This document shows, piece by piece, positions 10,881 to 19,121 of a stretch of 64,000 bases of DNA. The position numbers were made by a program, and so were the translations under genes. Numbering within the stretch: position 1 is the stretch's first letter; each line of letters opens with the position of its first letter. Source of the DNA: Jiangella endophytica (lineage in GTDB: Bacteria > Actinomycetota > Actinomycetes > Jiangellales > Jiangellaceae); assembly GCF_003427025.1 (NCBI RefSeq), contig NZ_QVAI01000017.1, forward strand, positions 1-64,000, in the 5' to 3' direction. The notes below the pieces were generated by a model. The model ran no database searches. It saw nothing but the letters and a program-made list of their open reading frames with translations, and was not told the DNA's origin.

Positions 10881-11124
10881 AGGCCGGCCCTCCGTGTCGC
10901 GTACGGCATCCAACGTGCGAAGTTGCGCGGAGCCTAACGACGCGCACCGAGCGGTCGCCTGGACCACTTCAGGACCAATTTCACGGAACGCGAGCGCGCG
11001 AGCGACCCGTGCCCCCATTGACCGCGTCCGACCCCACAGCCATGGTGGGCGGCGCGTGACGCACGGCACACGCACTGGTACGGACCTCCCCCTACCAGTC
11101 GGCAGCTCCAGGTTCGAGGTGACG

Positions 11125-12121
11125 TCAGACCAGGAGGCGCGAGCGCGGACCGGCCGACTGCCACCACGGGAACGGCTCCCGGCGCACCGGGCACCGCTCG
11201 ATCGCGGCCGCGAACCGCGCCGCCAGCTGCTTCCGGTCGTGGCGCGCCGGCTCCCAGCCGTAACGCACCACCCCCAGCCCGGCCTCGCGGAGCCGCCACT
11301 CGCGTTCTCGCTGGTCGGCCACCACTCGCCCCGCGTCCAGACGGTTGTCGTACTCGAGCGATCCGTCGCCCTCGAACGCCAGCCACCGGTCCGCGAGCAG
11401 GTGGCCGACGCGGTAGCGGCCGGCGGCGGTATCGACCCACGCGTTGGTGACCGGCACCGGCAGGCCGTGCTCGATGAAGGCCAGCCGTCCCCACGACTCC
11501 AGCGGGCTCTCGGCGTACGGATCGCCATGCTCGACCACCCAGACGGCATCGCGGCTGCCTCGCCACCCCGCCTGCGTACCCAGCACGGACCGCAGCTCTG
11601 GCTGCGTCATCGACGTGGACAGAGCGGCGTCGGCGATGACCAAAGCGTCGGCACGATGCGCCGTCCGCGCGATGTCGACGACGGTGCGAGGCAGCGAGGT
11701 CACCCGGCAACCATCGTGGAACCCGCACTGGTCCGCGGCAACGCCGCCACCCGCACCGTGCCGTAGCGCTGTTCACCGCCGATCCCGCGCCGCCGGCCAG
11801 GTGGACCAGGGGCTGGTCGGGCGGCGGGCCGATGGCGGGCAGGCCGTGCACGACGGCCGCGGACCACCCCGCCGCGAACGCGCGCGGGCCGCAGGCCACT
11901 GTGAACGCCCGCGACCTCAGGCCGAACGCGGTCCACACGTCGGCGCCGAGGTAGGTGGCCGCACCCGCATAGACTCCGCGCGCGAGCCGCACCACCAGCC
12001 CGGATCGCTCCAGTCGCCCCACGCGATGCCTGGTGATCCGCCGCGACTCCGCTTCGGCGACGCTGAAGACACCGTGACCGGCACGCAGCAGGCGGGCGAC
12101 GTCGTCAGGCACGATGCGCAC
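11125..12121 (-). pseudogene. Frameshifted AbiEi/DUF559-like protein
   Basis: Coding similarity runs through three reading frames. From the GTG at 12121 to about 11760 one frame encodes an N-terminal AbiEi-antitoxin-like winged helix (DDVARLLRAGHGVFSVAEAE, then GRLERSGLVVRLARGVYAG). A short middle piece (GTVRVAALP) is in a second frame. From about 11730 the third frame reads CRVTSLPRTVVDIARTAHR and continues into a DUF559/Vsr-like endonuclease-fold domain (SPLESWGRLAFIEHGLPVP ... WLAFEGDGSLEYDNRLD ... GLGVVRYGW). Intact relatives are single proteins of about 300 aa. Two 1-nt shifts in the same direction within about 40 bp break it. The usual Asp in the RVDF-type motif of the nuclease domain is also replaced (RVGHLL). 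No AbiEii-type toxin lies next to it. A sequencing error is possible. Confidence 0.65.
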
Positions 12122-12150
12122 GCCATCGACGACAGCAGGGCCTGCCGAGC

Positions 12151-12399
12151 TCAGCCGGTCGAGGACGACCCGCCGGGGAGGTCCTCGCCGATGGTGTCGC
12201 TGAGCTGGTCGACGTTGAAGACCAGCCAGATGAAGATGCCGGCCGCGAGCGCGGACACGATGATCGTGCCGAGCGAGAACTTCGAGTGCACGGCCTTGTA
12301 GATGACGAACACGATGGCGACGGTGACGGCCACCGTCCGCAGCACCGGCTGCAGGTCCACGGCGGTGGTCGACGCCCAGTCGAGGATCCCTGCCTGCAT
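12151..12399 (-). CDS. Small two-helix membrane protein, unknown function
   Basis: 82 residues from the ATG at 12399 (98 if an upstream TTG at 12447 is used). It contains two hydrophobic helices, VLRTVAVTVAIVFVIYKAV and LGTIIVSALAAGIFIWLVF, separated by a short basic hinge, and an acidic/Gly-Ser tail (DTIGEDLPGGSSSTG). Shape and size resemble small TrbC/VirB2-like or holin-like proteins, but I see no signal peptide cleavage motif and no transfer genes nearby, so no function is claimed. It lies 29 bp upstream of the frameshifted AbiEi-like gene on the same strand and may once have been cotranscribed with it. Confidence 0.55.
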   Translation of the reverse strand: MQAGILDWASTTAVDLQPVLRTVAVTVAIVFVIYKAVHSKFSLGTIIVSALAAGIFIWLVFNVDQLSDTIGEDLPGGSSSTG

Positions 12400-12548
12400 G
12401 CCTTGGAGGATACGGACGGCCGGCCGAACGCGCTCCCCTTCGCCCAATTCGCGGACGTCGGGCGAGGCTGGGCGGCAGGGGTAGGCGCGGGCGTCCGAGC
12501 GAGGCGGGCGGAGCCGGCATCCCCGCCCGGCCCCGCCCGCTCCACCCG

Positions 12549-14057
12549 TCAGCGGTAGTTGGTGAACTCCTCCATGGCGATGACCGGCTTCACCCGCGAC
12601 TGGAACCGCGGCGTGACGAACGCGTCGCGCAGCAGGTCGTCGGCCAGGGCGTTGCCGATCGCGCCCATGATCATGCCCTGGTCGAGGGAGAGGAAGTACT
12701 CGTCGACGGCGCCGGTGTCGACGTTGACGGCGTCGCGGAAGCCCCAGCCGGAGTAGATGTCGAAGTCGCGCTCCAGGTTCGCGAGGTTCTCCATCGCCTC
12801 CTCGGGGGCGTAGCGCAGCGCCAGGAACGTCGCGTGCGGCGTGACGACGCCGTTCGTGTACTCCTCCGGGCCGGGCAGCGGCCGGCCCTCACGGCAGCCC
12901 TCGAAGCCGGGGTCGGGCCGGGTGTCGTCGTTGTTGGACGGATAGCCGTTCGGGTCCATGCCGATCAGCGGGACACCGTAGACGTTGTAGCCGCCCTCGG
13001 TGTTGTTCGACGGCGAGAAGCCCCAATAGCCGTACTGCGCCTCCTCCATGCCGTGCTCGATGTGCGCCTGGACGGTGTTGGGGTGGTTGACCGCCCAGCT
13101 GCGCCGGCCCCACTCCTCCTCGGGCACGAACAGCGACGGCATGAGCGCCTCGAACATGCTGCCGCCCCAGCCGGGCACGACCTCCAGTCCGCGGTACTGG
13201 TAGGCGCCTTCCCAGACGTCCTGCCGCAGGTAGGTACGCCATTCACCGACCGGCTTCGACTGCTGCCAGCTCCAGTCGCAGGTGTCGGGGAAGCTGCGCC
13301 AGGTGCCGAAGTAGGTCTCGCGCGGCAGCTCGCCCTTCGCGATGCCGATGTAGGTGGCGATGCGGCTCTCGCTGACGAGCGTGTCGTAGCAGCACGGCGC
13401 GGCGCCGGTGCTGGGCGCGTAGTGGAACAGGATCCGGTTGACCTCGGGCCGGTAGTAGAACCCGAAGTCCATGCTGTCGAACAGCTCGCCGGCGGGCTGC
13501 GCCAGCTCCGGCACCGCCTCGCGGACGACCTGCAGGCCGGTCGCCAGCCAGCCGTTGTCGACCGACGACAGGTGCGGCACGATCGTGCTGCCGTCGTCGG
13601 GCCAGGTGGTGATCACCTCGCCGGTGCGGTGGTCGTACCAGTTGAAGAACTGGCCGCTCTCCTCGTGCCGTTCCAGCCCGGCCAGCGTGTCGAGGGTGAC
13701 GGCGAGCCGGTCGACCAGTTCGTCGCGGCCGATGATGCCGAGCTCCTCGGCCACGACGGCGCTCCACAGGTAGGCGCCGATGTTCGTGGTCGACGTCTGC
13801 GCGCTGGCGGTGCCGTCGGCCTTCAACTTGTCCGCGGGCATGCCGCTGGCCTCGTCGGTCATCGCGACGAACGACGCCCAGGTGCCCTCGGCGTAGCGCT
13901 GCAGCGTGGCGCGGTCGTCCTGCGACAGGCCGTCGCCCGGCCGGTTCGCGGCCGTGGGCGCCTGCGGCGCGGCCTGGGTCGGCACCGCCAGGCCGGCGAC
14001 CAGCACCGTCGCGGCGGCTCCCAGGACCAGTGCCTTCGCTCTCGATCGAATCTGCAT
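12549..14057 (-). CDS. Secreted glycoamylase-like (GH144-type) protein
   Basis: 502 aa with a Sec signal peptide (RSRAKALVLGAAATVLVAGLA, cleavage near AQA/AAP). The body is an (alpha/alpha)6-barrel glycoamylase-like domain: SSVDNGWLATGLQVVREAVP, GFYYRPEVNRILFHYAP, SMFEALMPSLFVPEEEWG, YGYWGFSPSNNTEGGYNVYG, VTPHATFLALRYAPEEAMENL and SLDQGMIMGAIGNAL are landmarks of that family. It includes the Glu in the E-A-L-M-P segment usually assigned a catalytic role. Known members of GH144 and related families act on beta-1,2-glucans; substrate here is inference. The start ATG at 14057 has GGAGAGG 7 nt upstream. The large ThuA/GSDH gene ends 28 bp before it on the same strand, so the two are likely one operon and may attack the same glycan. 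Confidence 0.82.
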   Translation of the reverse strand: MQIRSRAKALVLGAAATVLVAGLAVPTQAAPQAPTAANRPGDGLSQDDRATLQRYAEGTWASFVAMTDEASGMPADKLKADGTASAQTSTTNIGAYLWSAVVAEELGIIGRDELVDRLAVTLDTLAGLERHEESGQFFNWYDHRTGEVITTWPDDGSTIVPHLSSVDNGWLATGLQVVREAVPELAQPAGELFDSMDFGFYYRPEVNRILFHYAPSTGAAPCCYDTLVSESRIATYIGIAKGELPRETYFGTWRSFPDTCDWSWQQSKPVGEWRTYLRQDVWEGAYQYRGLEVVPGWGGSMFEALMPSLFVPEEEWGRRSWAVNHPNTVQAHIEHGMEEAQYGYWGFSPSNNTEGGYNVYGVPLIGMDPNGYPSNNDDTRPDPGFEGCREGRPLPGPEEYTNGVVTPHATFLALRYAPEEAMENLANLERDFDIYSGWGFRDAVNVDTGAVDEYFLSLDQGMIMGAIGNALADDLLRDAFVTPRFQSRVKPVIAMEEFTNYR

Positions 14058-14085: not shown

Positions 14086-17000
14086 TCAGCTGCGGCCGGC
14101 GGCGGCGATGATGGCGCCCCGTTCGGCGCGGGTCAGCACGCCGTCGTGGACCAGGTGCTGGGTGACGCTGCGGACGTGCATGAGGAACCGGCCCTCGTTC
14201 GGCCACTCGATCTCGTCCTCGATGAGGTCCTCGACGGTGCAGCCGTCGTCGCGCTCGTAGTTCGGCACGCCGGAGTCGACGTCGCGGATGACGACCGTCG
14301 GGCTCTCGTCGGAGTCCGGGCAGGCGTCCGGCGGCTCGGACTCGAGCACGTGGAACCAGTCGAACGCGACGGTGGTCGCCTGCGTCTGTTCCTGGCCGAA
14401 CGCGTAGAGCCCGACGTCGGCCGTGGCCAGGCGGTCGTTCTCGATGACGCCCACCGGCTCGAAGGTCACGCCGTCGGAGCTGTAGTAGCCGGTGTAGGTC
14501 GTGCCGGTCTTCTCCAGCCGCAGCCACCAGGTCGTGACGCCATCGGGCAGGGTGACCTCGGGGAACGCGGGCTGGAAGATGTCGTCGATCTCGTGGCGCA
14601 TCTCGATCTTGCGCTCGCACGGCTCTCCGACCGGCGACGTACCGACGTAGTCGAGCTTGAGGAAGGTCCGGTCGCTCTCGTAGACCAGCAGGCCGCCCTG
14701 CTGCCAGCGCTCGCAGACCGGGCCGGACACCTTCGTCTCGATCACCCAGTCGCCCGCCGGCAGCGTCTGCAGCATGAGGTTCGGCGCGTTGTTGTGCTGG
14801 TCGAACAGGTTGGTCGGGGTGGTGTCGATCTTCAGCTGGCCGCCCTCGACCCGGAACCGGTTGAGGTCGGGCCGGACCACCTGGTCCCAGCGGCAGCCGT
14901 CCAGGCGGTCACCGTCGAACTCGTCGTCGGGCGCGGGGTCGCTGCCCGGGTCGGCGCACTCGATCGGCGGCGACGCCTCCGGCACGGCCTCGACGCGGAC
15001 GGAGTCGTGCGCCTGCGAGCCGGCGGCATCGGTGACGGTGACCGTCGGCCGGTACACGCCGGACAGCTCGTACGTGTGCGTGACCTGGGCCCCGGTGGCC
15101 GTCGTGCCGTCTCCGAAGTCCCAGGCGTAGGTGAGTTCCTGGCCCTCCGGGTCGGTGGCCTCGGCGCTCAGCGTCACCTCGTACGGCAGCTCGCCGGACG
15201 GCGGCGTCGCCTCGACCGACCAGATCTCCGGCCGCGCGTCGACGGAGACGCCCTTGCCGCGGAACTTCAGGTAGTTGAGGTTGAACAGGCCGGTCGACCC
15301 GGGCTCGTGCCGGAACACGAAGAACAGCTCGTGCGTGCCGCCGGGGTCCTCGACCGGGACCGTCACGTCGGTCCAGGACTGCCAGCCGCCGGTCGGCGGG
15401 ATGAACCCGCTGTCTCCGACGAGCGGGCCGTCCGGCGCGCCGGAGCGGATCTCGATGCGCCCGCCGCTGCCGCCGGACGCGAGACGGTAGGTGATGGCGT
15501 CGATCCCCGCGAGGTTCATCGGGTCGTAGGAGATGTAGTCGCCGTCGTCGATGAAGCCGATGTTCTGCCGGCCGCCGCGCGGGTCGCTGGTCGCCTCCAG
15601 CTGGACGCCGCTCTGCGTCTGGTAGTGCTCGGCCTCCTTGAGCTTGGGCTGCAGGACGTGCAGGTCGCGGCCGGTCAGCGCGCCGACACCGGCGCCGCCG
15701 CGGTCGGTGTAGCGGGCCTCCAGCACCCAGAACAGGTCCTCGCCGGCCGGGTGGCCGGCGTCGGTGCTGGTGGCGACGGTGCCCTCGCAGCCGGGCAGCA
15801 CCTCGACGGGGTGCGCGTGGCCCGCGTGCCCGAACAGCACCTGCAGGTCGACGCCGTCGCAGCCGATGCCGCTGCCGGTGGAGCCGTCCTCGGCGTCGGT
15901 GACGTCGATGCCGTACGCGATGTCGTCGCCGAAGTCGAAGAAGCCGCCGTCGGCCGGCGGGTCGAGCGTCACCTCCGGTGCGGTGTTGCCGGCGGTGATC
16001 TGGACGGTCTGCGAGCGGGTCGCGCCGTCCTCCGCCGTCACCGTCAGCCGGGCGGAGTACTGGCCGGCGACGGTGTAGGTGTGCTCCGGGTCGGGGTCGG
16101 CCGACTCGGCGCCGTCGCCGAACGCCCAGTGGTACGTGACCGGCAGGCCGCTCGGATGGCCGGAGCCCTCGCTGCTGAACCGCACCGTCAGCGGCAGCGC
16201 GCCGGACGTCGGGTCGGCGCTCACCTGCGCGACCGGCCGGGTGCCGACGCCGGTGTACTCGACCCGGTAGATGCCGGAGTCGGCGTTGTTGCCGCCGAAC
16301 CCGGTCCCCCACTCGATCAGGTACAGCGCACCGTCCGGCCCGAACGTCATGTCCATCGGGCGCAGGAACTCCATGCTGCTGAGCAGCGGGTTGACGTCGT
16401 GCACCGAATCGCCGTCGAGCCGGAACTCCCAGACGTCGTTGTCGAACGGCCGCACGTAGCCGTCCTCGGTGTTCGTCCACTCGTAGAACAGCGCGGCGCC
16501 GTCGTAGTAGGCCGGCCACTTGACGTCGGAGTCCAGCGACTCGTCGTAGCGGTAGACGGGGCCGGCCATCGCGCCGCCGCCGGTGCCCAGCTCCGGCCGG
16601 TTGGTACCGGTCTCGGAGCGGCCGTAGTAGACGTCCGGCGCGACCACCGGCGGGAGTTCGGCCAGTCCGGTGTTGTTCGGCGAGTCGTTGACCGGGTTCG
16701 CGCAGTCGAACGCCGGGCCGGCGGTGCGGGTGGCGAAGTCCCAGTCGCGGAACGGGCCGGCGCCGTGGCAGTAGGGCCAGCCGTAGTTGCCGGCCGCGGT
16801 GATGCGGTTCCACTCGACCTGGCCCTCGGTGCCCCGGTCCGGGTTCGCCTGCGGCGCGTCCGGGCCGTAGTCGCCGACCAGCAGCGCGCCGGTGGCACCG
16901 TCGACCTCGATGCGGAACGGGTTGCGAAAGCCCATCGCGTAGATCTCCGGCCGGGTCTGCGCGGTGCCGGACGCGAACAGGTTGCCGGCCGGCACGGTGT

Positions 17001-18405
17001 AGGTGCCGTCGGGCTCGGGGTGGATGCGCAGCACCTTGCCGCGCAGGTCGTTAGTGTTGCCGGAGCTGCGCTGGGCGTCGAACGAGCCCCGGCCGGGCCG
17101 CTCGTCGATCGGCGCGTAGCCCTCGGACTCGAACGGGTTGGTGTCGTCGCCGGTCGCGAGGTACAGGTTGCCGGCCGCGTCGAAGCTCAGGGAGCCGCCG
17201 GCGTGGCCCGAGACGGCCCGGTCGACCGGGACCTCGAGCAGCTGCACCTCACTGGCGAGGTCGAGCGTCGTGCCGGTGAGCGTGAACCGCGACAGCCGCT
17301 GCTCGGCCTGTGTCCCGTCGGGCGAGTAGTAGAGGTAGATCCAGCCGTTGCTGACGAAGTCGGGGTCCAGCGCGACGCCGAGCAGGCCGTCCTCGCGCTG
17401 CGTGTAGACGTCGAGCGTGCCGACGACGGTCGTCTGGCTGCTCTCCGGGTCGATCACCCGGACCTCTCCGGCCCGCTCGACGTAGACCACCCGGCCGTCC
17501 GCCGCGACGTCCAGCTCCATCGGGTTCGCCGTGCCGGTGTCGAGCGGGACCTTGTCGAAGCTGTCCCAGACGGTGCCGCCGCAGTCGGCCGCTGTCGCGC
17601 CGGCCGCGGTCTCGATGCCGCCGAGCAGGTGCTGCAGGAACTCCGGCTCGGCGTAGCTCTCGGTCGTGTGGCCGCCGGCGGTGTACCAGGCGCGGCCGCC
17701 GTCGTAGGTCTGGCACCAGGCGATCGGGTGGTCCAGGCCCATCGGGTTCGCCTCGGGGTCGTACGTGGACTCGTCCAGGCTGGCCAGCACGTGCACGTCG
17801 CCGCGCGGGTTGGTGCGGAAGCTGTACCACTCGTCGAACCGCTCCCAGCCGGCGTCCAGGTGAGCGGTCGAGGGGTGGGTGCGGTCGGCGACCTGGATGG
17901 TGGCGTCCTGGTTGCGCGGGTGACCCTGGAAGTAGGCGCCGACCAGCTCGCCGTACCACGGCCAGTCGTACTCGGTGTCGGACGCGGCATGGACCCCGGC
18001 GTAGCCGCCGCCGGCCTGGATGTAGCGCTCGAACGCCGCCTGCTGGTCGTCGTTCAGGACGTCGCCGGTGGTGGACAGCCAGACGACGGCGTCGTACTGG
18101 GCGAGGTTCTCGTCGGTGAACGCGGTGGCGTCCTCGGTGGCGGTGACGGTGAACTCGTGCTCGGCGGCCAGTTGCTGGATCGCGGCGATGCCGGCCGGGA
18201 TCGAGTCATGCCGGAACGCGGCCGTCTTCGAGAACACGAGGATCGAGTAGCCGCCGTGTCCGGGGTGGGCAGCGGCCTCGGGCGCCTGCGCTGCCTGCGC
18301 GCCGAGCGCGGCCAGCAGCCCGGCGATCAAGGCGACGACCGCGACCAAAGCGGCCGGTCTGCGCGGGTGTCGGGCGCGTCTGCGGCGCGGTCCGGGCTGA
18401 GCCAT
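14086..18405 (-). CDS. Secreted ThuA / PQQ-type sugar dehydrogenase / PKD / CBM6 / DUF1080-like protein
   Basis: 1439 aa with a twin-Arg-rich N-terminus and signal helix (PAALVAVVALIAGLLAAL). Domains in order, approximate residues: ThuA class-I-amidotransferase-like (50-245; ILVFSKTAAFRHDSI, GGGYAGVHAASDTEYDWPWY, GGRAWYTAGGHTTESYAEPE); glucose/sorbosone dehydrogenase beta-propeller (265-685; GLLGVALDPDF, SGHAGGSLSFDAAGNLYLATGD, AMGFRNPFRI, PDGALYLIEWGTGF); PKD (695-775); a Cys-containing linker domain; CBM6-like (EAEHYQTQSGV, DDGDYISYDPMNL); second PKD (TYAWDFGDGTTATG); a DUF1080/LamG-like domain (DEFDGDRLDGCRWDQVVRP); and a short acidic tail. ATG at 18405 has GGAGAGG 8 nt upstream. It probably binds and oxidises or trims extracellular polysaccharide. 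Its promoter carries two operator-like sites. Confidence 0.88.
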   Translation of the reverse strand: MAQPGPRRRRARHPRRPAALVAVVALIAGLLAALGAQAAQAPEAAAHPGHGGYSILVFSKTAAFRHDSIPAGIAAIQQLAAEHEFTVTATEDATAFTDENLAQYDAVVWLSTTGDVLNDDQQAAFERYIQAGGGYAGVHAASDTEYDWPWYGELVGAYFQGHPRNQDATIQVADRTHPSTAHLDAGWERFDEWYSFRTNPRGDVHVLASLDESTYDPEANPMGLDHPIAWCQTYDGGRAWYTAGGHTTESYAEPEFLQHLLGGIETAAGATAADCGGTVWDSFDKVPLDTGTANPMELDVAADGRVVYVERAGEVRVIDPESSQTTVVGTLDVYTQREDGLLGVALDPDFVSNGWIYLYYSPDGTQAEQRLSRFTLTGTTLDLASEVQLLEVPVDRAVSGHAGGSLSFDAAGNLYLATGDDTNPFESEGYAPIDERPGRGSFDAQRSSGNTNDLRGKVLRIHPEPDGTYTVPAGNLFASGTAQTRPEIYAMGFRNPFRIEVDGATGALLVGDYGPDAPQANPDRGTEGQVEWNRITAAGNYGWPYCHGAGPFRDWDFATRTAGPAFDCANPVNDSPNNTGLAELPPVVAPDVYYGRSETGTNRPELGTGGGAMAGPVYRYDESLDSDVKWPAYYDGAALFYEWTNTEDGYVRPFDNDVWEFRLDGDSVHDVNPLLSSMEFLRPMDMTFGPDGALYLIEWGTGFGGNNADSGIYRVEYTGVGTRPVAQVSADPTSGALPLTVRFSSEGSGHPSGLPVTYHWAFGDGAESADPDPEHTYTVAGQYSARLTVTAEDGATRSQTVQITAGNTAPEVTLDPPADGGFFDFGDDIAYGIDVTDAEDGSTGSGIGCDGVDLQVLFGHAGHAHPVEVLPGCEGTVATSTDAGHPAGEDLFWVLEARYTDRGGAGVGALTGRDLHVLQPKLKEAEHYQTQSGVQLEATSDPRGGRQNIGFIDDGDYISYDPMNLAGIDAITYRLASGGSGGRIEIRSGAPDGPLVGDSGFIPPTGGWQSWTDVTVPVEDPGGTHELFFVFRHEPGSTGLFNLNYLKFRGKGVSVDARPEIWSVEATPPSGELPYEVTLSAEATDPEGQELTYAWDFGDGTTATGAQVTHTYELSGVYRPTVTVTDAAGSQAHDSVRVEAVPEASPPIECADPGSDPAPDDEFDGDRLDGCRWDQVVRPDLNRFRVEGGQLKIDTTPTNLFDQHNNAPNLMLQTLPAGDWVIETKVSGPVCERWQQGGLLVYESDRTFLKLDYVGTSPVGEPCERKIEMRHEIDDIFQPAFPEVTLPDGVTTWWLRLEKTGTTYTGYYSSDGVTFEPVGVIENDRLATADVGLYAFGQEQTQATTVAFDWFHVLESEPPDACPDSDESPTVVIRDVDSGVPNYERDDGCTVEDLIEDEIEWPNEGRFLMHVRSVTQHLVHDGVLTRAERGAIIAAAGRS

Positions 18406-18495
18406 GAGCGGTTCCTCTCCGTTGAGTCCCCCTGCCCCACTGCCCCCCGTGCCTTGCCCGGCCTGGCTGCGCATTCGTCTGGGCGCCCGCCGAAT

Positions 18496-18520
18496 GTAAC
18501 CGGTATCAGTAACCGGTTAC
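18496..18520. promoter_or_regulatory. Doubled LacI-type operator upstream of the ThuA/GSDH operon
   Basis: GTAACCGGTTAC at 18509-18520 is a perfect 12-bp palindrome. GTAACCGGTATC at 18496-18507 is a near copy in direct orientation, 13 bp away. A central CCGG flanked by A/T-rich arms in an otherwise very GC-rich region is characteristic of LacI/GalR-family operators controlling sugar genes. The site lies about 90-110 bp upstream of the ATG at 18405. No LacI gene is in the window, so the regulator would act from elsewhere. Confidence 0.7.
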
Positions 18521-19121
18521 GAGGAGAGAGTTCCGTACCGAATGTCCGGTGTCAAGAGGTCGGCCGCGGGTGGCGACGTCGACCGGCGCCCGATGCGCTC
18601 CAAGATCATCCACGATTCGTTGCGTGATAGCGCCGCAGATCCTGGATGATCATGGCGACGGCGTCGTTCGGTGTCGTCGGCCGGCACAGGGCGCGTCGGC
18701 GCGCGTACGCAGGCCGGACAGGCGGACGTTGTCGGTGCCCGCCCGTAGAGTGACCAGCCCACCCAGCCGGGAGGGGACCGTTCCCGGGCAGAACGCGACC
18801 GCACCCGGACAGTCGGGGACTACGACCGCCGATCTGAAAGACCCGCGCGACCGCAGCTGCCGAAACGGACCAACCCCAGCCCCGACCCGCCGCGGAGCCC
18901 GACCCGCCCGCGAAGCCCCACCGACCCGCCGGCTCCGACCAGCCCGTCAGCCCGCGAAGCCCCACCGACCCGCCGGGCCCGACCAGCCCGTCAGCCCGCG
19001 AAGCCCGACCAGCCCGCCGCGGAGCCCACCAGCCCGCCGCAGGGCCAGCCCGCCACGGAGCCCACCAGCCCGCCACGAGCCCGAACCCGGGCACCAGAGC
19101 CGACTGCCACGGGCCTGGGTG
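18521..19121. other. Gene-free intergenic region with imperfect inverted and tandem repeats
   Basis: About 600 bp between the ThuA-gene promoter and the dusB stop contain no convincing gene. At 18601-18656, CCAAGATCATCCA and TGGATGATCATGG form a 13-bp inverted repeat with one mismatch and a loop of about 28 nt. Downstream is a C-rich, Pro-codon-like tract with tandem repeats (listed separately). A 162-codon open frame on the minus strand (18606-19094) is low-complexity and crosses the repeats, so it is not annotated. Confidence 0.7.
18907..19019. repeat. 44-bp tandem repeat, 2.6 copies
   Basis: Unit 1 (18907-18950) and unit 2 (18951-18994) begin CCCGCGAAGCCCCACCGACC and differ at two bases only; a third copy starts at 18995 and degenerates into shorter CCAGCCCGCC units up to about 19080. 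The period is not a multiple of 3, so the repeat is not coding. It ends some 40-100 bp beyond the dusB stop and may mark a recombination or slippage site. Confidence 0.8.

Follow-up and report, generated by a model that had tools for sequence, protein, structure and literature searches.

A candidate LacI-controlled β-1,2-glucan regulon in Jiangella with a ThuA-GSDH megaprotein as a proposed member

The 64,000-nucleotide window analyzed here (Jiangella endophytica, RefSeq assembly GCF_003427025.1, contig NZ_QVAI01000017.1, positions 1 to 64,000) carries on its minus strand a gene for a 1439-residue protein with ThuA and GSDH domains (the megaprotein, P0001) and, directly behind it, a gene for a GH193-type enzyme (P0002). 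The locus is probably one of two operons in a LacI-controlled β-1,2-glucan regulon of Jiangella, to which the megaprotein would be a new addition. The gene pair is a new combination of known parts, and a likely regulator has been found for it. Both operons, both operators, their conservation, the location of the regulator gene, the GH193 residues and the domain folds can be read from the sequences themselves. As judged by genome comparison, the regulatory half is well supported; the proposed mechanism is weakest in the chemistry that it assigns to the megaprotein.

A doubled operator shared by two operons

Upstream of the gene pair, GTAACCGGTTAC (18509-18520) and a near copy with two mismatches (18496-18507) stand 13 bp apart. 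These are the sites that the initial annotation had assigned to the LacI class, and the palindrome has a central CG. When the 12 genes of the genus are aligned over 475 bases at the gene start (400 of them upstream), the 28-base block GTAACCGGTTACTGATACCGGTTACATT is invariant in 12/12 genomes and the surrounding sequence is mostly divergent; GTAACCGGTTACTGATACCGGTTACATT has a conserved TTGACA-containing block on its 5′ side. TTGACA precedes the operator in both operons described below, and no clear −10 box was found at the operator promoter of the gene pair. Loss of the operator from relatives with the same operon had been named in the initial annotation as one refuting observation; the operator is present in all 12.

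The 7.85-Mb genome contains a single exact copy of the 12-mer GTAACCGGTTAC, against about 0.11 predicted by base composition, and four sites when up to one mismatch is allowed. None of these sites led to a regulator, and the 12-mer was rejected as a means of finding the regulon. The 13-bp tandem GTAACCGGTNNNNGTAACCGGT, in contrast, is found exactly twice per genome in 12/12 genomes (7e-5 expected per genome by composition). In every one of them, 41-43 bp separate the beginning of the second copy from the start of a LacI-family gene downstream. The 12-mer missed this second operator because the site matches the 13-bp tandem and not the full palindrome. A genome search thus revealed another doubled operator, at a LacI gene promoter, where the exact 12-mer search proposed in the initial annotation would not have found it. 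The opposite strand of GTAACCGGTTACTGATACCGGTTACATT holds GTAACCGGT-NNNN-GTAACCGGT, and all 12 genomes contain this pattern without mismatch at exactly two places. Among 148 relatives there are 25 tandem matches, of which 24 are the two Jiangella sites; the 25th (genome G014, contig 55), between ftsQ-like and ftsZ-like genes within a short tandem duplication, was treated as a chance match. Two further observations concern such motifs and the DNA around the promoter. Another TAACCGGTTA site (C22:8355) immediately precedes a small open reading frame (ORF) whose translation has no visible link to sugar use, and repetitive stretches with GGGCTGGTGGGCTCCG-like units occupy positions 18900-19100 of the window (minus strand), upstream of the promoter.

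The LacI gene at the second site (C67:195012-196061; L121:9013-10062) heads an operon that also encodes a solute-binding protein, two permeases and a GH39 protein (L121), and carries the shared operator in its own promoter. Across the 12 genomes, its counterparts are 84-100% identical to the own-genome copy. There are 72 LacI-like matches in the genome; when the LacI protein from the GH193 operon of a different genus is compared with them, one clear best match stands out, at 60% against 39% for the next. A GH15-like gene (L121:10125-11537) diverges from the LacI gene with the second doubled operator between them, and this operator may control both genes. The arrangement suggests that the LacI protein binds both operator sites and responds to a sugar ligand. 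In each operon, LacI would occupy a pair of neighboring palindromes with a 13-bp spacing, placed downstream of the −35-like TTGACA, and would block transcription until an oligosaccharide releases it.

The first operon is conserved in the genus. P0001 and P0002 are adjacent and in the same order in 12/12 genomes (own plus 11), with tblastn identities of 83-93% and 80-87%, respectively. The initial annotation had read the two genes as an extracellular polysaccharide unit with LacI-class sites, and the operator in 12/12 genomes, in front of the pair and again before the LacI gene, supports this reading. Both proteins have N termini that look by eye like signal peptides. The open frame of the megaprotein (18474-14086) encodes 1462 residues from its first ATG. 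This longer reading is used to number P0001, and subtraction of 23 gives the numbering of the 1439-residue protein. ATG 18405, which yields the 1439 residues given originally, was chosen as the start codon because the GGAGAGG ribosome site there is conserved in the genus alignment. P0002, the glycoamylase-like gene of the initial annotation, starts 28 nucleotides downstream. A 528-residue ORF right behind it (10934-12520, minus strand), with an AbiEi_4 antitoxin-type match, was dropped as a third operon gene, as it is not one gene across the genus.

The GH193-type enzyme and the likely substrate

P0002 (numbered from 2 residues before the ATG at 14057) matches Glycoamylase (PF10091) and DUF3131 in Pfam. 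For GH193, the general acid E246 and the candidate base D160 of SkSGL, as well as a Phe and a Tyr typical of the clan (GH-S), have been described (PMC12102758). In P0002, E232 aligns with the equivalent of SkSGL E246 and TiCGS E1356, and D169, within SSVDN, aligns with VDNGNLA of EeSGL1 at the position of SkSGL D160. The clan residues, F286 and Y367 in XcSGL, correspond to F304 and Y359 (or Y362; both are invariant). Of 21 aligned homologs, 20 were scored, the incomplete L090 being excluded, and E232, D169, F304 and Y359 are invariant in all 20. The top-scoring PDB matches of P0002 are cyclic glucan synthases, yet an assignment as a GH189 transglycosylase was rejected. The GH189 nucleophile, E1442 of TiCGS (PMC10834661), is replaced by Pro351 in P0002 (WGISEA aligned to WGFSPS), and the long GH189 insert described in PMC12102758, ∼200 residues (142 to 342) in the 8wy1 chain, is reduced to ∼35. 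P0002 thus resembles GH193 (Group 2 of the SGL clan), with SkSGL of Sanguibacter keddieii as the reference, in PF10091, the acid Glu, the base Asp, the clan Phe and Tyr, the lack of a GH189 nucleophile or insert and the Gram-positive host. It differs from SkSGL in having no extra Ig-like domain, and was compared with it through the published SkSGL residues. P0002 therefore fits GH193 and probably cleaves β-1,2-glucan endolytically. According to Table 1 of PMC12102758, the tested clan members of groups 1-3 act essentially on β-1,2-glucan only.

The solute-binding protein of the second operon points to the same sugar. Its best PDB match is Lin1841 (2.5e-66, 228 bits), which binds β-1,2-glucooligosaccharides (PMC12369401). 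The clusters of Streptomyces griseus (SGR_2422-2427) and Listeria innocua (lin1839-1841) also contain a Lin1841-like binding protein and permeases, and that of S. griseus a GH193 enzyme as well; the pairing of binding protein and GH193 in S. griseus has been assigned to β-1,2-glucan sugars (PMC12369401). In contrast to both clusters, the Jiangella genes are distributed over two operons that have the doubled operator in common, and include the ThuA-GSDH megaprotein. Compared with S. griseus, GH39 stands in the place of GH1, and a regulator and an operator are proposed for Jiangella; the body of the article on S. griseus (PMC12369401) does not contain the word "regulator". On the strength of the GH193 assignment and the binding protein, β-1,2-glucan is likely the substrate of the regulon, which makes the β-1,2-glucan named in the initial annotation a sensible choice. 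The GH193-type enzyme of operon 1 would cut β-1,2-glucan endolytically, and the solute-binding protein, permeases and GH39 of operon 2 would import and process the oligosaccharides. GH39 regularly accompanies GH193 or its LacI-transporter operon (L093:30-1880, L094, L096, L097, L233, L121:4000-5850); no role for it in β-1,2-glucan use was met in the portions of the literature consulted.

The ThuA-GSDH megaprotein

Pfam places ThuA, GSDH, two PKD domains and CBM6 in one chain (Table 1), in agreement with the initial annotation, and the Pfam match to GSDH (PF07995) itself covers P0001 317-570. The nearest solved relative of the CBM6 domain, BH0236, is presumably a β-1,3-glucan binder. The DUF1080-like domain that had been listed does not appear, since PF06439 (DUF1080 / 3-keto-disaccharide hydrolase) gave no match in P0001 at 1e-3; the last named domain matches GH43_C2 (1.3e-12) and DUF1349 (2.3e-10) instead. 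The earlier list had also overlooked a C-terminal module of ∼80 residues.

Table 1. Features of the megaprotein operon (window coordinates)
Feature	Position	Strand	Evidence or remark
CDS (coding sequence), 1439-aa ThuA-GSDH-PKD-CBM6-PKD-ConA-like-CTD protein	14086..18405	-	ORF, Pfam, genus alignment
ThuA domain, P0001 78-288	17611..18243	-	Pfam PF06283 4.6e-84; PDB 4jqs 4.9e-17
GSDH propeller, P0001 301-745	16240..17574	-	Pfam PF07995, alignments, AlphaFold2 model, VIA
PKD domain 1, P0001 about 754-826	15997..16215	-	Pfam
CBM6, P0001 947-1072	15259..15636	-	Pfam; nearest solved relative BH0236 (1w9s, 1.8e-26)
PKD domain 2, P0001 about 1087-1160	14995..15216	-	Pfam
Concanavalin-A-like domain GH43_C2/DUF1349, P0001 1184-1376	14347..14925	-	Pfam
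C-terminal module without name, β-hairpin plus helices, P0001 1382-1462	14089..14331	-	
Doubled LacI-type operator GTAACCGGTTAC-T-GATACCGGTTAC, 13-bp period	18496..18520	-	About 91-115 bp before start codon
TTGACA, −35-like	18550..18555	-	In conserved block upstream of operator
CDS, GH193-type endo-β-1,2-glucanase candidate P0002	12549..14057	-	Pfam, alignments

The AlphaFold2 model of the propeller (pLDDT, a per-residue confidence, 88.3) superposes on the pyrroloquinoline quinone (PQQ) sugar dehydrogenase 3a9g with a VIA Z of 39.5 (2.5 Å over 330 residues). In the PQQ-dependent dehydrogenase sGDH, the catalytic residues are a His, an Arg-Asn pair and a Gly-Pro pair, and Lys377, Arg406 and Arg408 clamp the PQQ. 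His144, Arg228-Asn229 and Gly247-Pro248 of sGDH align with H424, R517-N518 and G537-P538 of P0001; H424, R517, N518 and P538 are invariant in 23/23 sequences down to 39% identity, and G537 is kept in at least 90%. The megaprotein thus shares with the PQQ-dependent aldose sugar dehydrogenases (sGDH, 3a9g and 3das of S. coelicolor; GSDH PF07995) both the propeller fold (Z 36 to 39.5) and the catalytic His, Arg-Asn and Gly-Pro, and differs from them in that the propeller is fused behind ThuA in a 1439-residue chain.

Two sets of observations count against PQQ use. In the clamp, where the alignment is weak, one Arg is kept in 12/12 orthologs, the position of the second Arg holds Met in 11 and Ile in 1, and the aligned stretch of the 12 orthologs shows no Lys. 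PqqE above the cut-off was found in 0/12 genus genomes and also in 0/14 controls, so that this search had no positive control. PQQ can be obtained from outside the cell. The PQQ-type propeller of the initial annotation is supported by the fold and the catalytic His, Arg and Asn and less so by the clamp, whose Lys and second Arg were not seen in the weak alignment, and by the PqqE search. With its PQQ site half kept as judged by alignment, the megaprotein may use PQQ. In the favored reading of its function, it would dock on the glucan through CBM6, its propeller would oxidize a sugar hydroxyl and ThuA would act on the keto-sugar so made; this oxidative role is quite possible without being probable. 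A serious rival, itself possible rather than probable, is that the megaprotein is a scaffold. The propeller would have lost PQQ and would only bind, like the hedgehog-interacting protein (HHIP), and CBM6, the PKD domains and the C-terminal module would hold the glucan near the GH193 enzyme. HHIP, a non-enzyme with the same propeller fold, reaches Z 31.8 against the propeller model, and therefore the fold is no proof of activity. The incomplete clamp, the PqqE result and the several binding-type modules in the chain would also suit a scaffold, but the invariance of H424, R517, N518 and P538 would be needless for one, and the supply of PQQ from outside takes weight from the PqqE result.

Rhizobial ThuA is a single-domain protein. 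The megaprotein has its ThuA domain in common with ThuA of the rhizobial thuEFGKAB operon, which has been linked to a 3-keto sugar route (PMC7404187, citing Ampomah et al. 2013), and differs from it as a secreted multidomain fusion. DUF1080 proteins have also been linked to 3-keto-sugars (PMC9007349). To place P0001 among its sister proteins, 11 GSDH proteins of the genome, P0001 included, were scanned with Pfam; L046:3-1553, cut by the locus edge, and weaker matches were left out. ThuA and GSDH are found in one chain in 8/11, and 4 of these 8 also contain a 3-keto-disaccharide hydrolase (L035:2740-7530, L032:2189-6721, L045:859-8415 and L046:6594-11465). One protein combines GSDH with this hydrolase without ThuA, and two have neither; of the 10 GSDH proteins scanned besides P0001, 5 match PF06439. 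P0001 has matches at E 1e-100 in 38/148 relatives; matches of at least 85% are confined to the genus, and the next best among the 148 reach 54-56%.

Because a sugar-oxidase fold is fused with 3-keto-sugar enzymes, we tentatively suggest that ThuA-GSDH megaproteins might be single-chain oxidize-then-cleave machines for polysaccharides, with one polymer per paralog, here β-1,2-glucan. The propeller might oxidize a ring hydroxyl, with C3 as the probable site, and ThuA, in the sister proteins together with the fused 3-keto-disaccharide hydrolase, might process the keto-sugar. Just as tentatively, the megaprotein might work beside a classical GH193 hydrolase, with one LacI switch for both. No description of a protein of this type, no tested function for a ThuA-GSDH-PKD-CBM6-like protein and no LacI-type sophorose regulator was found in a search of open-licence papers, which gives weak evidence of absence.

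The C-terminal module has 17 copies in 16 proteins of the genome (L015-L031), P0001 included, with the consensus TVV.G.VDSGV.N....GCT.NDLI.D..W..HG.FVRHV.EV..QL.A.G.IT.RER..I.RAA..S. Its carriers in this genome are ThuA-GSDH, 3-keto-hydrolase, M14 and S15 peptidase, GH127, Sde182-like and Ig-rich proteins and a polysaccharide deacetylase with two copies. From 84,980 species genomes, 264 relatives of the module were retrieved and 77 loci kept, all of them actinomycete according to their records. The module is followed by at most 30 residues in 66/77 loci, and 60 of the 77 carriers, scanned for domains, contain Big_13 Ig-like repeats (39), 3-keto hydrolase (11), GSDH (9) and ThuA (4). The secreted proteins that end in the module are otherwise unrelated, and this terminal position suggests a role in attachment or targeting. 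No match was found to Pfam, NCBIfam or PDB families. FIMAH (PF22888), another C-terminal module of ∼80 residues, closes sister ThuA-GSDH or GSDH proteins (L045:859-8415, L046:11407-17268 and L047:3599-6976 end in it where P0001 has the unnamed module). The Jiangella module has no profile similarity to FIMAH (no match for 17 members at E 1; hhalign probability 3.7%), and the assignment to FIMAH or any other of these families was rejected. A Foldseek search of the module model (pLDDT 92) against the PDB gave nothing at E 0.001, and the best VIA superposition has a Z of 4.7 (2.9 Å over 55 residues); neither a new nor a known fold is therefore indicated.

Related loci in other genera and the meaning of the proposed regulon

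Ten loci outside the genus were compared (L089-L097 and L233); GH193 matches in G021, G053, G067, G070 and G144 were left out of this comparison of neighbors. LacI, solute-binding protein, two permeases, GH39 and GH193 are found together in 5/10 (G123, G019, G020, G014 and G139), and the solute-binding protein, permeases and GH193 in G059. From these sequences, GH193 lies inside the LacI operon in other families and in Jiangella stands apart, with the ThuA gene and behind the same operator. The LacI promoter of G139 contains GTAACCGGTTTCTGAAACCGCTTAC, a 13-bp doublet identical to the Jiangella operator at 22/25 positions, and that of G014 a single GTAACCGGTTGC.

Several observations weigh against the proposed regulon. 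In G082, G096, G133 and G065, GH193 occurs without the LacI-transporter operon in the stretches covered, two of which are short, and these genomes hold the closest relatives of P0002 outside the genus (60-65%). Indeed, in a tree of 22 GH193 proteins, the Jiangella enzymes group with the four stand-alone ones (fork 100/100) and not with those borne on operons. Replacement of the GH193 gene is therefore as possible as its relocation. A related but different site, AAAGCGCTTAC, is present in G123, and the search in front of the G019, G020 and G059 operons found no operator-like motif. ThuA-GSDH adjoins GH193 in none of the non-genus loci examined. G139 has a ThuA-GSDH gene on the same contig as GH193, 24 kb away, without the operator and beside a xylose isomerase-like gene; given these features, it was not counted as support for a link between ThuA and β-1,2-glucan. 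Finally, the second PDB match of the solute-binding protein, 3uor (3e-63, 217 bits), is nearly level with Lin1841, and the ligand of this protein is therefore not fixed.

The 3uor score would also fit a regulon with a different sugar as its target, such as maltose-, trehalose- or xylose-type oligosaccharides, in which the specificity of GH193 and the solute-binding protein would have shifted and ThuA would lead to keto-trehalose-like chemistry. The GH39 of operon 2, the divergent GH15-like gene beside the LacI operator and the xylose isomerase-like neighbor in G139 are in line with such a change. However, the conservation of all β-1,2-glucanase clan residues in the 20 scored homologs, the activities tabulated for clan groups 1-3 (PMC12102758) and the assignment of the equivalent S. 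griseus cluster (PMC12369401) make it unlikely. It is very improbable that the two operons share the doubled site as a promoter element or as the target of another regulator, with the LacI gene nearby by coincidence: TTGACA before both operators, the many LacI-like proteins and the G014 match near ftsZ could be read in this way, but there are two sites only per genome in 12/12, which excludes a general promoter element, one of them lies in the promoter of the LacI gene itself, and the motif precedes the corresponding LacI gene in G139 and G014.

The regulon as proposed names a likely regulator and its 25-bp operator. ThuA-GSDH-PKD-CBM6-like proteins are common among these bacteria, as the unnamed C-terminal module is among secreted actinomycete proteins. 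The locus links one such ThuA-GSDH protein to a defined regulon and hence to a probable substrate, and the question of what the megaprotein does can now be tested with a few proteins and a single polymer.

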